From assembly GCF_000816085.1 (NCBI RefSeq), contig NZ_CP008747.1:1116001-1180000 (forward strand): 64,000 bases of DNA, given 5' to 3'. The notes under the pieces were generated by a model that did not search any database, was not told the DNA's origin, and was given only the letters and a program-made list of their open reading frames with translations. A program made the translations under genes and the position numbers. This document shows positions 25,945-33,470 of this stretch, piece by piece. How positions within the stretch are numbered: position 1 is the first letter of the stretch; each line of letters begins with the position of its first letter. Source of the stretch: Staphylococcus hyicus. GTDB lineage: Bacteria > Bacillota > Bacilli > Staphylococcales > Staphylococcaceae.

Positions 25945-26016
25945 GGCCCCTTGGTCAAGCGGTTAAGACACCGCCCTTTCACGGCGGTAACACGGGTTCG
26001 AGTCCCGTAGGGGTCA
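25945..26016 (+). tRNA. tRNA-Glu (TTC), second copy
   Basis: It is nearly the same as the first tRNA-Glu, but with the acceptor stem GGCCCCT/AGGGGTC and no encoded CCA. It begins one base after the CCA of tRNA-Asn. Confidence 0.94.
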
Positions 26017-26064
26017 TATAATCAGAAGTGAAACATCGCTTCTGATTTTTTTGTTTATATCTTT

Positions 26065-26153
26065 GGAGAGTTGTCCGAGTTGGCCGAAGGAGCACGCCTG
26101 GAAAGTGTGTAGGCGCCACAAGCGTCTCGAGGGTTCGAATCCCTCACTCTCCG
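26065..26153 (+). tRNA. tRNA-Ser (GGA)
   Basis: A long-variable-arm tRNA with acceptor stem GGAGAGT/ACTCTCC, anticodon GGA and a standard T loop. Its 3' end from 26140 is the attachment site of the phage relic that follows; the gene remains complete. CCA is not encoded. Confidence 0.95.
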
Positions 26154-26156
26154 TTA
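26140..26156 (+). repeat. Attachment site repeat, left (in tRNA-Ser)
   Basis: TCCCTCACTCTCCGTTA covers the last bases of tRNA-Ser plus three bases beyond. It is repeated exactly at 30409-30425. Confidence 0.92.
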
Positions 26157-26338
26157 CTTTAAAAATATCTGTTAATATTTGAATAACCAAAACCTTTAGA
26201 AACATTGATACATCAGTGTTTCTTTTTTATTTTGTCTAATATTTGTGAATATTTGTTTTGGTTTTATGTGGTCACAAATGGCACAAATTTAGATGAATAT
26301 TAATTTTTGGTCACAAGTTGTGTCCAAAATTTCCTGAA

Positions 26339-27370
26339 TCACATACTACGTAAGGCTTTTAATGTTTTATTTTCTTCCACACTTTTTGTTTCTTCTAACA
26401 AATGGCTGTAAATTGATAGGGTAGTTGTTATATCTGCATGTCCTAATCTTTTAGAAATATAATATATAGAAATTCCGTTATGAATTAGCATTGAGCAATG
26501 GGTATGTCTTAGGGAATGCAGTGTGGTAATTACCTAACTTATTTTCTATACAAAACCTCTGTAAAACATTTGTCACTGTATTATGTGTTATGAGGTTAGC
26601 ACCAGTTGTAAATATATTACCTTGTATATTGTTGGGGAAATTATTTAAAACCTTTCTAACATGTTTAATATCTTCTTTAGTAATTTTTATGATGCGATCT
26701 GCATTTTTAGTTTTTGTACCTCTAATATGCACAGTTTCATCAGTTAAATTAAGATCTTGATACTTTAACTTTTGAACCTCACTAAATCTAGCACCAGTCA
26801 CTATACATAAGTATATAAATAAATATGATAACTGTTCTTTTTCTTTGGAAAACTCTTTTAATTTATAGAAATAAGACAATTGCATAAATTTATCTCCTTC
26901 CGCTTGAGCTTCTTTTTTACATTGCACAATCACTTTATAAGTAGGGTCTTTAGCTATCATACCTTCGTAAAAGGCATCAGATAATGCAGACCTTAAACAG
27001 TAATTTAATTTCCTAACAGATTCAGAAGTATGGGTTTCTGCGTAATCATTGATTAATTCTTGATAATTCATTCTATTAATTTTATTAAGAGGCATATTAC
27101 CGAATTTTTTTTCGAATATATTTTTGGCATTATAATAAGTTTTCAATGACTTATCTGTTAAATAGGGGGCTTTGTGAATTTTAATCCAGTTTTCAAAAAG
27201 TCTATAAACGGCATATCGGATGATAAATTATTGCCTTTGTTCAACGTATTATATGTTGCGTTCATTGCTTGGATAGCTTCTTTTTTTGTTTTAAATCCGC
27301 TTTTTCTATGACGTTTTCCGTTTAATCTAAAGTCATATTGCCATTTATTACCACGTTTTGTTACATACAT
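26339..27370 (-). pseudogene. Phage tyrosine integrase, broken by two frameshifts
   Basis: The frame starts well, with GAGGAGG before ATG 27370, and encodes the N-terminal arm-binding domain (RGNKWQYDFRLNGKRHRKSGF). Near 27197 a T run is one base short; moving frame restores ENWIKIHKAPYLTDKSLKTYYNA and the core-binding domain. The catalytic domain follows, with GARFSEVQKLKYQD holding the first Arg. A second one-base shift near 26523 separates it from HSLRHTH, LGHADI and the nucleophile in IYSHL, which are in the other frame and end at 26339. Repaired, it would be about 344 residues, normal for staphylococcal phages. It should not be active. Confidence 0.92.
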
Positions 27371-27394
27371 TTTGTTTCCTCCTCAAAAAAAGTA

Positions 27395-27425
27395 AAAAAA
27401 TAATAAGGGTACGTGGGGTACCCAG
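27395..27425 (-). terminator. Possible terminator before the integrase
   Basis: On the minus strand GGGTAC and GTACCC form a short hairpin followed by TTATTATTTTTTT. It would end transcripts from the lipoprotein side. Confidence 0.5.
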
Positions 27426-27435
27426 TATTATTTAG

Positions 27436-27666
27436 TTATTCTTCGTCAAAGACGTCTACTACATTAATTACGATTTCTTTAGTTTCAGCTTTAATAGTTA
27501 TGTCGTTTGTATAACCTACTTGTTTTATTTGTACTGAATTATCATTAACTATTAAAGCTGCTTCCACATTCTCAAAGTTTTGAATTAAAATAATTTTATT
27601 ATCGTTAGTCAATATATCGTAGTCATCTTTACCTTCAAAGATAATGTTCCAGTTATTAAATTTCAT
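27436..27666 (-). CDS. Small acidic phage-type protein (76 aa)
   Basis: Unrecognised. It is predicted to be mostly beta strand (KFNNWNIIFEGKDDYDILTNDNKIILIQ), has an acidic end (VVDVFDEE) and has no membrane segment. AAAGGAG precedes the ATG. It lies between the integrase and the lipoprotein in the lysogeny module of the relic, where siphophages carry varied small accessory genes. The frame is intact. Confidence 0.6.
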   Translation of the reverse strand: MKFNNWNIIFEGKDDYDILTNDNKIILIQNFENVEAALIVNDNSVQIKQVGYTNDITIKAETKEIVINVVDVFDEE

Positions 27667-27733
27667 TTAATAGTCTCCTTTAGTTTTTTTGTATATGTTA
27701 CTTTTTTTATGATGGAAAATAGTATTATTAATC

Positions 27734-28813
27734 TTAATAGGGTTTAACCTCATCTAAAATTCCATTTTGACGTTGTTCCATTGATTTTAAATCAGTGTCT
27801 GATACGCCATCTTGGTTCATTTTGTCTGATAAGTCAAAGTATTCTTTTTCTAATTCAGCCTCGCGAGCTGACTGTTTACTATCACTGTCTGATTCTTCTG
27901 ATGTACCCTCAAATTCAGATGAATTTATATCAGATTCGGCTTCATCTTCCATTGCTTCGTACTTCGCCATCTCTGCATTATCTCTCGCTTCTACTTCTTC
28001 ATTATGCACTTCAGTCAAAACATTGTTTATTTCCATAAGAATATTGTAAACATATACATTAACTTCGTCATCAACACGACTAATCTGTGAATCTTTATCC
28101 AATCTTTTATTAACTTCGTCAACAAGTTCATTAAATTCAGCAGCAGACACTGTTCGAGTGTGGTTGTTTTTAGAGTATTTATTTAATTTAACCATATCTC
28201 GTTTTGGTATTTTATCTGTATCGTTAATAATATGATTTTTATTTTGCAACAAGGCAAATGCTTTGATTAACTCTTCTTGTTCTTCCTCTTTAGTGTGAAG
28301 GATATTGTATAAATTATTATTTTGCTCTTTTCCTAGAATTTTTCTAGTTTCTACATTTTCAATATTTACTTTTAAATTCCCTAAACTTTCTTGAGCTATA
28401 TAAATGTCTTTAACTGCTATTTTAAAATAAGCTTCTTTAGAAACGCCATCAATAGACCCTACATTATCAAGTCTCATATACAAATCTGAATAAATTTCAT
28501 AAATATATTTAAATGTTTTGTCAAGTTCTTCACGATCATAATAATCTTTCAATAATTCTTTATCAACTTCTTGTTTGTAATCTTTGTATGATTTATCAAT
28601 CTCTTTAGAAGCCTTTTTTGCCTCTTTGCTAATCACGTTAGGGTCTTCAGATTTAATTTCGTCAATCTTTTTGAAAGTTTTAGTAATATCTTTCACATAC
28701 TTTTTGGTTGCATCTGAAAATTTCTTTTCCTTATCTTCTTCGCTCATGCCACATGCCGATAAAAGTACCAAACAGATAAACATTAAGCCAGCTAACAATT
28801 TAAATTTCATCAT
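27734..28813 (-). CDS. Intact phage-encoded lipoprotein
   Basis: A 359-residue exported lipoprotein. The signal ends in LLSAC with the lipidated Cys at residue 21. The mature part is highly charged and almost wholly helical, with many Lys/Glu pairs and an acidic stretch around residues 275-310. I cannot name a domain. It is the only large intact gene in an otherwise frameshifted phage relic, between the integrase and the ImmA gene. Some Gram-positive phages encode a superinfection-exclusion lipoprotein in this slot (Ltp of Streptococcus phage TP-J34); that this one acts so is inference. Its start overlaps the end of the ImmA frame, so it was co-translated with it. Confidence 0.8.
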   Translation of the reverse strand: MMKFKLLAGLMFICLVLLSACGMSEEDKEKKFSDATKKYVKDITKTFKKIDEIKSEDPNVISKEAKKASKEIDKSYKDYKQEVDKELLKDYYDREELDKTFKYIYEIYSDLYMRLDNVGSIDGVSKEAYFKIAVKDIYIAQESLGNLKVNIENVETRKILGKEQNNNLYNILHTKEEEQEELIKAFALLQNKNHIINDTDKIPKRDMVKLNKYSKNNHTRTVSAAEFNELVDEVNKRLDKDSQISRVDDEVNVYVYNILMEINNVLTEVHNEEVEARDNAEMAKYEAMEDEAESDINSSEFEGTSEESDSDSKQSAREAELEKEYFDLSDKMNQDGVSDTDLKSMEQRQNGILDEVKPY

Positions 28814-29275
28814 AATTCCTCCCCTGGATGTCCTTATATATTGTTAAAGGTTCAAAACAAATATTGTAATTTTTATAGCGAACCATTAAACCATATTTTT
28901 GTTTGTAATGATTTATAGTGTCTTGCACAAAACCTTCTGTGACCTCAAAAAAAGAGACATCTCATGCAAGTTGTGTACTCCATTTTCGTAAGCATCTATA
29001 ATCCCTTGAATGCTTATTACTGATTCGTAAGCTTTTCGTCTTGCGTAATTTTCAAATTTTCTGTTTAGAATTTTTGACTGATCTAAGATGTTTCCATATG
29101 TAATTTTATGATGTGCGATTTCTTCAGCAAGCGTTTCATGTTTTTTATACACACTCATATTTTCTTTTGTGTAAATTGTTCCCTCGTAATATAATCCACG
29201 TTGAAAGTGCGGTAGGGAAGATGTCTCAACCACATCTATGTTTTCGTTTTCGATTAATAAACTTTCGTACTTTAA
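28800..29275 (-). pseudogene. ImmA/IrrE-type metalloprotease, frameshifted
   Basis: The frame reads LPHFQRGLYYEGTIYTKENM and then the zinc motif HETLAEEIAHH, which is typical of phage ImmA proteins that cut the CI repressor. Near 28950 a run of T is out of register: the present frame ends at 28913, but one base of shift restores FFEVTEGFVQDTINHYKQK and continues to a stop at 28800-28802, overlapping the lipoprotein start. At the 5' end the frame extends to about 29275 (KYESLLIENENIDVVETS) with TTA where a start codon is expected, so the start may be lost too. Confidence 0.85.
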
Positions 29276-30224
29276 TTTACATCATCCTTTGAAAAGTTAC
29301 TTTACTTTTTGCGATTTTTAATAAATTCAATAAATTGACGCACTTACTCCATTAGATTTTCCTTATCAAAGTAAGTTGCAATTGATTTTGATATTTGAAA
29401 TGAGTTTCATCTTATCATGGTACTAAAGGCAATTTAATATTACAATCTTCATATTTATATTTTATCATTAAATACGTTTATATGGAGAAATATATAAAGC
29501 GCCTTATTCAAAATTATCTTAACGATTATTATTAATTGGTAACTTTCTTTTTTGTTTGCAAAAAGCAATGCAAGTTCTTTATTTGGTGTGAGGTGATATT
29601 TATGAGACTGGGTATGGATACAGATAGAATGATAGAGCTATACAATTAAAATAAACCGTAATAAAATGTTGTGATTTAATGACTGAGGAAGAAAAATTAG
29701 CTGCATGGGATGTGCAATACGGCTGTTTGATGAAATTTTTTTAAAAAATTGACACGTAGAAAATTAGATAGAAAAATTATGGTTTCTATAAAACATAACG
29801 ATGAAGTTATTTGTATAAAATAGCCGTACAAAAAATGCGCAAAGAAAATAGGTAACCTCGAATAAAAAATGACCAATTAAACGGTCGTTTTTTTGTTATT
29901 TATGAAACACCTACTACGGTTACCTTCTATATTTACAGAGAAATATAAAAGTAAGGTGTTTTTTATGGTGAGGTCAAAAATACAAACTCTATTATCAATT
30001 TGTATTCGAAGGAAGATGTACATAAGGAAAACGGGAAAGAAAATTTAAAGTCCTTTATCAAAGGAGATATAATTAAAGTTGTATATACCGATAACAAGGG
30101 AGTCATACTTCAAACTAAAAAAGTAAATAAGAGTGAAGTAGCTAAAGAAGTTCGCGAAAAATTAACAATTTAAACTGTAAATAATTAGATATATAAATAA
30201 AACTTAGGGGAAGGGTGAGACGGA
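29276..30224. other. Decayed phage region without intact genes
   Basis: The part next to ImmA (around 29290-29350, minus strand) reads VRQFIEFIKNRKK before a stop, which may be the end of a lost repressor gene. Around 29890-29915 a hairpin with a T run (GACC/GGTC) looks like a terminator. From 29955 to 30172 a plus-strand frame of about 70 codons (starting around GEVKNTNSIINLYSKED, ending EKLTI) is intact but has no start codon in frame. All fit a collapsed phage segment. Confidence 0.5.
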
Positions 30225-30362
30225 ATGATTGATGTAAAATATTATACAGATATTGAAATAACACACTTTATAAGCATTGGTGAATTAGAACTTCATAAAG
30301 TTAGGAAAGATGAAATAAAGACTATAGAAAAATTATTTAAACCTAACTTATTTATGCTGTAA
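30225..30362 (+). CDS. Short phage-relic protein (45 aa)
   Basis: A 45-codon frame starting MIDVKYYTDIEITHF, with a strong purine-rich ribosome-binding site (GGGAAGGGTGAG) just upstream. It has no signal or membrane segment. It ends about 45 bases before the right attachment repeat, so it is the last gene of the element. Not recognised. Confidence 0.45.
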   Translation: MIDVKYYTDIEITHFISIGELELHKVRKDEIKTIEKLFKPNLFML

Positions 30363-30408
30363 GTGCCAATCACGAGTCAAAATAGTTTTAGATGGGAAGC
30401 ATCAAATG

Positions 30409-30425
30409 TCCCTCACTCTCCGTTA
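30409..30425 (+). repeat. Attachment site repeat, right
   Basis: This is an exact copy of the 17 bases at 26140-26156. It marks the right end of the phage relic. Confidence 0.9.
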
Positions 30426-30998: not shown

Positions 30999-31060
30999 CC
31001 TACATGTAATGTTGTAATTTTGGTATTCAATAAAAAATTATGTATAGGAATAGAAACATC

Positions 31061-31924
31061 ATGAAAAAATTCTTAAAAAAATACAAATATCATGCACTTG
31101 TAATTTTCGCGGTGTGGAGCTTTATTTCTGGTTTTAAACTCTATTATACTAACTTTGGTAAGCCAAATGGTTTTGAGGAAAAGTATCCATTATTTTTGCT
31201 TAATATAGCGCTTATCGCAATTTACGCAATTCCCTTGATTCTACTAGCGCGTTATTTAACGAAACGCTTTGAAATTTCTAAAAAAGTAGTAACGTTAAGT
31301 TGGATTATGGGTTTAACTGCCTCCCTTTATTTGTCTGGTATAGGGCATTTGTTTGTTGCGCTTTTTTGGATTAAAGTAATTAACCCACCTCAATCTTTTA
31401 TTAATCAATGGGGCGCTGCTGTATCAGGCCCTTTTGCTGAAGAATTTGGCAAAGGGCTAACGGTTCTAATTATTTTACTCCTTTTCAAAAAAATGGATTT
31501 AAAACATGCCTTAGTGAGTGGTATGATCGTTGGTTTAAGTTTCCAAATTATTGAAGACTGTATTTTTACATTCCGAAACGTATTTGTAGCTAATGGTGAA
31601 GGTTTTGCAACTTTAATTGAACGTATTGTGCATGCAGGCGGTACCCATTGGACTTTCTCAATTTTATTTGCAGTGGGTATGGTAGCGCTAATTGCTAAAA
31701 ATACTGGATTTAGTAAAATTCAAGGTGTTTTCTGGTTAATAATGGGTATTTTCGCGCATTTCTTAGTCAACTCACCGTTCAATGATGGCATTGATTCAAA
31801 AACAGGGGAAGTGACTGTATTAATTTTAACGTTTAACTTATGTTTAGCGATCGCAGCAATTAAATCAGTCGATAAAATTGAATCGAAAAAAACTGAAGAC
31901 GCTTGTCAGGAAAAAACAAAATAA
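31061..31924 (+). CDS. PrsW-family intramembrane metalloprotease, first paralogue
   Basis: A 287-residue protein with about eight membrane helices. The family motifs are present: EEFGKG at residues 127-132 (the EExxK motif), FQIIEDC, and HAGGTHW with His at 191 and 196. PrsW (peptidase family M82) cuts anti-sigma factors in B. subtilis; related proteins act in bacteriocin immunity or prenyl-protein processing. The ATG at 31061 is chosen because AGGAA lies ten bases upstream and it aligns with the second paralogue. A terminator follows, so it is transcribed alone. No anti-sigma gene is nearby; its target is unknown. Confidence 0.82.
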   Translation: MKKFLKKYKYHALVIFAVWSFISGFKLYYTNFGKPNGFEEKYPLFLLNIALIAIYAIPLILLARYLTKRFEISKKVVTLSWIMGLTASLYLSGIGHLFVALFWIKVINPPQSFINQWGAAVSGPFAEEFGKGLTVLIILLLFKKMDLKHALVSGMIVGLSFQIIEDCIFTFRNVFVANGEGFATLIERIVHAGGTHWTFSILFAVGMVALIAKNTGFSKIQGVFWLIMGIFAHFLVNSPFNDGIDSKTGEVTVLILTFNLCLAIAAIKSVDKIESKKTEDACQEKTK

Positions 31925-32618: not shown

Positions 32619-33470
32619 ATGAAAAATTTATTTAACAAATACAAATATCATGCACTTATACTTTTTGCAATATGGAGTTTTTTCTCAGGTTGCAGAATTT
32701 TTTATGAGAGTTTTGGTAAACCGAATGGGTTAGAAGACAAGTATCCGTTGTTTTTGCTCAATATTGCACTCATTGCTATATATGCGATACCATTAATTTT
32801 ACTCACTCGATATTTAGCAAAACGCTTTGAAATTTCAAAAAAAGTAATCCAATTAAGTTGGGTTATGGCTTTAACTGCTTCTGTTTATTTTTCAGATATT
32901 GGCCATACAATTGTGGGATATACAACAATTGTTATTTTAAAAGTTCCCAATGCCATTTTAGCAGATTGGGGAGCCGCTATTAGTGGTCCGTTAGCTGAAG
33001 AATTTGGTAAAGGTTTTGCAGTTTTACTTGTACTGCTGATCCTTAAAAAAATGGATTTGAAAAATGCGTTAGTGAGCGGAATGATTATTGGTCTTGGTTT
33101 CCAAATTATCGAGGACTGTTATTTTACTTTCCAAGAGATATTTAAAGCTAAAGCTGACGGTTTTTCTCTACTTCTAGAACGTATTGCTTTTGCTGGAGGT
33201 ACACATTGGGTATTTACACTAATATTTGCTATCGGTATCGTTGCTCTAATTGCTAAAGATACTGGCATATCAAAAATCCAAGGTTTAGTTTGGATGTTGG
33301 TAGCATATTTCGCGCACTTTATTTACAATACGCCATTCAATAATGGAATAGGTTCAAGTACAGGTGATTTCACAGTTCTGCTACTAACAATAAATTTATC
33401 GCTAGCACTTTTAGCATTCAAAACGGTGGACAAGATTGTGTCGCAACAAAAAGGACAATTACCGAATTAA
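32619..33470 (+). CDS. PrsW-family intramembrane metalloprotease, second paralogue
   Basis: A 283-residue paralogue of the gene at 31061; the two start alike (FNKYKYHAL against LKKYKYHAL) and share most helices and all motifs: EEFGKG, FQIIEDC and FAGGTHW. In this copy the first His of the HAGGTHW motif is Phe, so it has lost one putative metal ligand or active residue while keeping the second His. A tandem duplication with divergence in the active site is therefore visible. AGGAAAGGG precedes the start. Confidence 0.82.
   Translation: MKNLFNKYKYHALILFAIWSFFSGCRIFYESFGKPNGLEDKYPLFLLNIALIAIYAIPLILLTRYLAKRFEISKKVIQLSWVMALTASVYFSDIGHTIVGYTTIVILKVPNAILADWGAAISGPLAEEFGKGFAVLLVLLILKKMDLKNALVSGMIIGLGFQIIEDCYFTFQEIFKAKADGFSLLLERIAFAGGTHWVFTLIFAIGIVALIAKDTGISKIQGLVWMLVAYFAHFIYNTPFNNGIGSSTGDFTVLLLTINLSLALLAFKTVDKIVSQQKGQLPN

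Follow-up and report, generated by a model that had tools for sequence, protein, structure and literature searches.

A lysogeny-module lipoprotein stranded in a collapsed prophage of Staphylococcus hyicus as a candidate superinfection-exclusion factor

The closest described counterpart of the protein studied here is Ltp of the Streptococcus thermophilus phage TP-J34 (PF07553, Lipoprotein_Ltp), which the accessible part of the source describes as a lipoprotein of the lysogeny module that blocks DNA injection (PMC3952083). The tape measure protein has been reported to be the target of Ltp. In the accessible part of PMC11436027, the terms Ltp and lipoprotein are absent. The 64,000-nucleotide stretch of Staphylococcus hyicus DNA analysed here (the window, whose coordinates are used throughout) encodes a lipoprotein that shares with Ltp the lipid-anchor motif and the place of its gene in a lysogeny module. 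It differs from Ltp in its length of 359 aa, in a large helical domain with an acidic linker after it, and in lacking the PF07553 repeats, for which no row was returned up to E 1. The serine-rich spacer of Ltp follows the anchor, whereas the serine-containing acidic linker of the window protein, at residues 270-316, follows the helical domain. Membership of the Ltp family was ruled out because the repeats are missing. An earlier note on this DNA had likened the protein to Ltp; the likeness stands for the slot, the lipobox and the lysogeny module, but not for the family. We keep two statements apart, namely that the protein may work like Ltp, as proposed here by analogy, and that by family it is a member of an unnamed tail family and not of Ltp. 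No sequence or fold relative with a known function was found in the family libraries or by Foldseek, PADLOC gave no match to the protein, and none of the literature titles listed concerned it or its tail hairpin. In a structural comparison, Foldseek returned no match at E <= 0.001 for the window model, no exclusion protein was matched structurally, and the comparison with VIA gave rows within the background.

The lipoprotein gene is an ORF with an ATG start at 27734-28813 on the minus strand, as given by the ORF list and its translation, and is open according to the ORF call, the genome match and a codon alignment to relatives. A search of its own genome (2.47 Mb, one contig) revealed a single match. 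The translation and an alignment of relatives point to a signal peptide and lipobox (28751-28813, minus strand) ending at Cys21, and lipidation is predicted from the lipobox motif. Charged residues (D/E/K/R) make up 39% of the mature protein. The predicted structure is almost wholly helical, with a mean pLDDT of 87.4 and a pTM of 0.71; the pLDDT is 90 or higher at 258 of the 359 residues and below 50 at residues 1-9, 14-21 and 298-310. The protein has a two-part make-up, in which a helical domain is joined to a conserved tail of 43 residues shared with phage lipoproteins. The helical domain (residues 22-269; 28007-28750, minus strand) was delimited by its occurrence alone in other staphylococcal lipoproteins and by the model. 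It is followed by the acidic linker with serines (residues 270-316; 27866-28006, minus strand), which was defined by composition and by the model, with low confidence at 298-310. The tail hairpin (residues 317-359; 27737-27865, minus strand) was recognised by alignment, profile and model, and carries Gly351 in place of Glu. The clean 1.08-kb frame seen in the earlier note was thus confirmed, and its description of an exported, lipidated, highly charged helical protein holds as a prediction.

The helical domain stands alone in lipoproteins of 265-304 residues from other staphylococci. Chromosomal members of 270-304 aa align to window residues 1 to about 269 and, unlike the window protein, have neither the tail nor a lysogeny slot. 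Some helical-domain lipoproteins have no phage genes nearby and lie in tandem, and one (in genome G017) adjoins phage-like genes. UniRef names one cluster of these proteins 'EMYY motif lipoprotein', and NCBIfam gave no match over the cut-off for the three tested (P0003, P0005 and P0011). A homologue of the helical domain is also encoded in the 153-kb Staphylococcus capitis phage Fi4S2 (L003:3962-4864; 22% identity, E 3e-6), where it sits among small hypothetical genes. Over positions 1-150000 of the 153406 in this phage, the annotation names no product integrase or repressor; the products include a transposase and a recombination directionality factor, and the record does not state a lifestyle.

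Residues 317-359 align with the C-terminus of phage lipoproteins that are about 190-240 residues long, for example gp04 of IME1354_01, and this hairpin is unnamed in the family libraries searched. A profile of the tail family collected 913 proteins at E <= 0.001, and the tail motif was present in 111 of the 120 best of these 913. Tail-bearing phage lipoproteins (IME1354_01 gp04 and those of S. arlettae, G005, and S. xylosus, G082) likewise have a lipobox, the slot before the integrase and a near-identical C-terminal hairpin. However, they carry a disordered charged spacer where the window protein has its helical domain, and their hairpin has Glu where the window protein has Gly. At residue 351, Glu was found in 113/113 tail proteins under a strict pattern and in 117/118 under a looser one; the set of 134 proteins was gathered by a consensus-favouring profile, so Gly351 is suggestive and not decisive. 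The tail alone is present in 10 of 84 genomes of the genus, the window genome included. A count with profile A3 (76/84 genomes) was discarded because many of its matches span the signal peptide and charged spacer only.

The gene lies in a collapsed prophage of 4.3 kb (26140-30425) between copies of a 17-bp direct repeat, which is the 3' end of tRNA-Ser. The integration site is the tRNA-Ser (gga) gene found by ARAGORN at 26064-26154 on the plus strand, and a repeat search located the left, attL-like copy at 26140-26156 and the right, attR-like copy at 30409-30425. Outward from the tRNA, the relic contains an integrase remnant (26335-27370, minus strand; PF00589 and PHROG integrase matches, alignment to L052), a 76-aa frame (27436-27666, minus strand; from the ORF list, with no family match over the cut-off), the lipoprotein gene and a metalloprotease gene (28800-29275, ends approximate, minus strand; PHROG 87 match and alignment). 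Beyond these lie the final 52 bases of a CI-type repressor gene (29302-29353, minus strand), identified by alignment to relatives in which the remainder does not align, and about 1 kb of further DNA (29354-30408) with one weak 66-base phage match. Three single-base breaks interrupt the flanking genes, two in the integrase and one within a homopolymer run in the metalloprotease, in agreement with the frameshifts reported before. The repressor gene is mostly lost, its 5' end included. This loss, the bounding repeat, the relatives without breaks and the true Ltp genes in the same slot elsewhere go beyond the earlier note. The 76-aa frame is absent at the corresponding place in the relatives L004 and L032 and has a 76% DNA match elsewhere in G015. 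Just outside the relic are two similar PrsW-family (PF13367) membrane protease genes (31040-31924 and 32619-33470, plus strand).

Relatives without these breaks were found in L004, a 41-kb IMG/VR contig of which 8.8 kb was read, and in L032, a region of genome G015. Both have the gene order Cro, CI, metalloprotease, lipoprotein, integrase, with the last four on one strand and the start of the lipoprotein gene overlapping the end of the metalloprotease gene, and the relic keeps this lysogeny-module place. L004 adjoins the same kind of tRNA-Ser (96% identity over 26000-26154). The DNA from 27734 to 29353, comprising the lipoprotein, the metalloprotease and the repressor end, is 83% identical to both relatives, whereas the relic integrase has no DNA match to either of their integrases, which also differ from each other. 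Within the module, the lipoprotein therefore moves together with the repressor side. In IME1354_01, two genes lie between the lipoprotein gene gp04 and the integrase gene. In its relatives without breaks, the window gene is an ordinary lysogeny-module gene. Between the window and L004, dS is 1.05 for the lipoprotein and 0.40-0.53 for the adjacent metalloprotease, and between L004 and L032 the relation is reversed (0.11 versus 0.25), which fits an exchange of alleles at the lipoprotein.

The earlier note had also placed the gene in a slot that some temperate phages use for exclusion lipoproteins, and this was supported in other staphylococcal loci. We took 39 loci around metalloprotease matches, the G015 locus not being among them. 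A metalloprotease frame was present in 38, and 34 also had a same-strand downstream integrase; L097, L109, L122 and L127 (no integrase found) and L135 (no metalloprotease frame) were dropped. At least one lipobox frame lies between metalloprotease and integrase in 19/34 loci. When non-overlapping frames of at least about 60 aa are counted, a lipobox is present in 23 of 77 inside the slot, compared with 4 of 114 outside (Fisher p 3.4e-7). In a Pfam scan of ten lipoproteins, nine from slot loci and one from L043, true Ltp proteins with two PF07553 repeats each were found in the slot of at least 3 of the 34 loci (L102:908-1459, L112:936-1472 and L125:3784-4338; 4.7e-42 or better). The slot proteins of L113 and L126 carry DUF5067 and not Ltp repeats. 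A gene for a second, charged lipoprotein comes after the Ltp gene in L102 and L112. Tail-bearing proteins account for 1 of the 23 slot lipoproteins and are thus one of several kinds of occupant. A clustering of the slot lipoproteins was set aside, as low-complexity spacers join most of them. Among five viral loci checked, the match covers the tail in four and the signal peptide only in L143. The tail lipoprotein gene lies directly before the integrase gene in L142 (the L004 contig), L139 and L141; in L140 both frames are broken and the order is the same.

We interpret the window gene as that of a lysogeny-module lipoprotein stranded in a collapsed prophage and likely to be a superinfection-exclusion factor, a reading to which we assign a probability of about one half. 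Judged from sequence and from the analogy with Ltp, superinfection exclusion would be its most likely role. The gene order in L004, L032 and IME1354_01, the slot statistics, the PF07553 slot-mates, the Ltp analogy and the sign of allele exchange at the lipoprotein all fit this role, and the helical-domain homologue in Fi4S2 fits a use against rival phages. In a lysogen, the lipoprotein would be co-transcribed with the repressor and displayed, through its lipid anchor, on the outer face of the membrane. There, its outer domains could contact the injection apparatus, probably through the tail hairpin, or else the partner of this apparatus in the membrane, and incoming phage DNA would be stopped from passing the lysogen membrane. 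Several observations argue against exclusion. PF07553 repeats, a PADLOC match and a structural match to an exclusion protein are all lacking, company in the slot is not function, and Fi4S2 encodes the transposase and recombination directionality factor mentioned above. In addition, the helical-domain lipoproteins without phage neighbours fit a housekeeping role.

The last observation also favours the strongest alternative, which we consider less likely, that the protein is a lysogenic-conversion lipoprotein with a role at the host surface (wall, adhesion or stress), carried because it helps the lysogen and not as an anti-phage factor. The chromosomal, partly tandem places of the helical-domain relatives and the presence of DUF5067 rather than Ltp repeats in other slot proteins agree with such a role. 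However, true Ltp proteins share the slot, and a homologue is found in a 153-kb phage without an annotated integrase. A wider form of the exclusion reading, which we regard as speculative and rather unlikely, is that the slot is modular, with one anchor and interchangeable outer domains (Ltp repeats, the near-invariant tail hairpin and helical domains), and that the tail could represent a novel type of DNA-entry blocker, retained by hosts as an orphan gene once the prophage is lost.

The earlier note had taken the preservation of the frame as a sign of selection and suggested that the gene may have been domesticated against phages, with selection still acting on it in this host. This proposal, which we now consider improbable for the window copy, was not borne out by the comparison of substitution rates with the broken neighbours, run against L004 and L032. 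The lipoprotein gene has a dN/dS of 0.108 against L004 (dN 0.113, dS 1.049) and 0.129 against L032, and the metalloprotease gene gives 0.108 before its break and 0.078 after it against L004, and 0.098 and 0.094 against L032. The lipoprotein (0.11-0.13) is thus under no stronger constraint than the broken metalloprotease (0.08-0.11). The three stretches of the integrase give 0.38, 0.20 and 0.055 against the more distant L052. No stop codons were found in the aligned stretches of the broken genes. Because the broken metalloprotease has an equally low ratio and no stops, the low ratio of the lipoprotein most simply dates from its time in the phage. For three indels falling in 2.8 kb of coding sequence, the probability that none hits the lipoprotein gene is 0.23 by length, 0.20 when the 76-aa frame is left out and 0.16 by Poisson count, so the open frame among broken neighbours, although it favours domestication, says little about selection in a relic this young. 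The promoter region also argues against domestication. The best forward promoter-like match of L004 is at the repressor 5' end, a region deleted in the window, and no minus-strand promoter-like match was found at 28814-29512; such matches are no commoner than in shuffles. The operon promoter is presumed to have been lost with the repressor 5' end, and the window gene is thus probably weakly expressed or silent. Gly351, where 113/113 tail proteins have Glu, points in the same direction. The window copy is most simply a young leftover rather than a gene with demonstrated retention by its host, a reading for which the metalloprotease dN/dS, the absence of stops, the chance of 0.16-0.23 and Gly351 are suggestive.

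Two observations favour domestication beyond the open frame. The homologue P0001 is full length and 97% identical to the window protein, and of the 11 residues that differ, 6 lie in the linker (p 0.0013), which fits constraint elsewhere; P0001 could, however, come from a phage. The window protein also has private residues at positions 36 and 265 with respect to P0001 and P0002; as other members vary there, we did not take these as signs of decay. The second observation is that open orphan copies occur in other species. Among the nine other tail-bearing genomes, an integrase domain lies within 1 kb of the tail lipoprotein in G005 and G015 and 14-20 kb from it in G007, G071 and G082, the gene of G071 holding two stop codons. 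No integrase domain was found within 100 kb in G032 and G049, or on the 106-kb contig of G048; the copy of G054 is on a 6,062-base contig, too short to call it orphan or not. In G048 (Staphylococcus pettenkoferi), the tRNA cluster and its tRNA-Ser are the ones found in the window, and the tail copy lies 1.1 kb from this tRNA-Ser. Beside it, at L043:7602-10551 (G048:C32), are three consecutive lipoprotein-like frames, of which one carries the tail and another DUF4352, on a contig without an integrase domain. Because the copies in G032, G048 and G049 are open and without a nearby integrase, tail lipoproteins do outlive prophages. Together with the low change outside the linker in P0001, these orphans fit retention better than drift. 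The orphan copies, in at least three other species, let the idea of domestication stand for the family, but not for the window copy.

It is highly improbable that the three breaks arose in sequencing or assembly and that the living strain has open neighbouring genes. In favour of such errors, each break involves a single base, one is in a homopolymer run, and the sequence beyond each break still has a low dN/dS and no stop codons. Against them, the repressor is mostly missing and 4.3 kb remain between the repeats, so that the prophage is collapsed in any case, and the upstream host genes, which we take to be hemE, hemH and hemG, are open.

For the staphylococci, these results suggest a testable rule, that many lysogeny modules hold a lipoprotein slot before the integrase and that a known exclusion family accounts for some of the proteins found there. 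The tail hairpin offers a small, defined part to test for the blocking of phage DNA entry, which bears on the choice of therapy phages.
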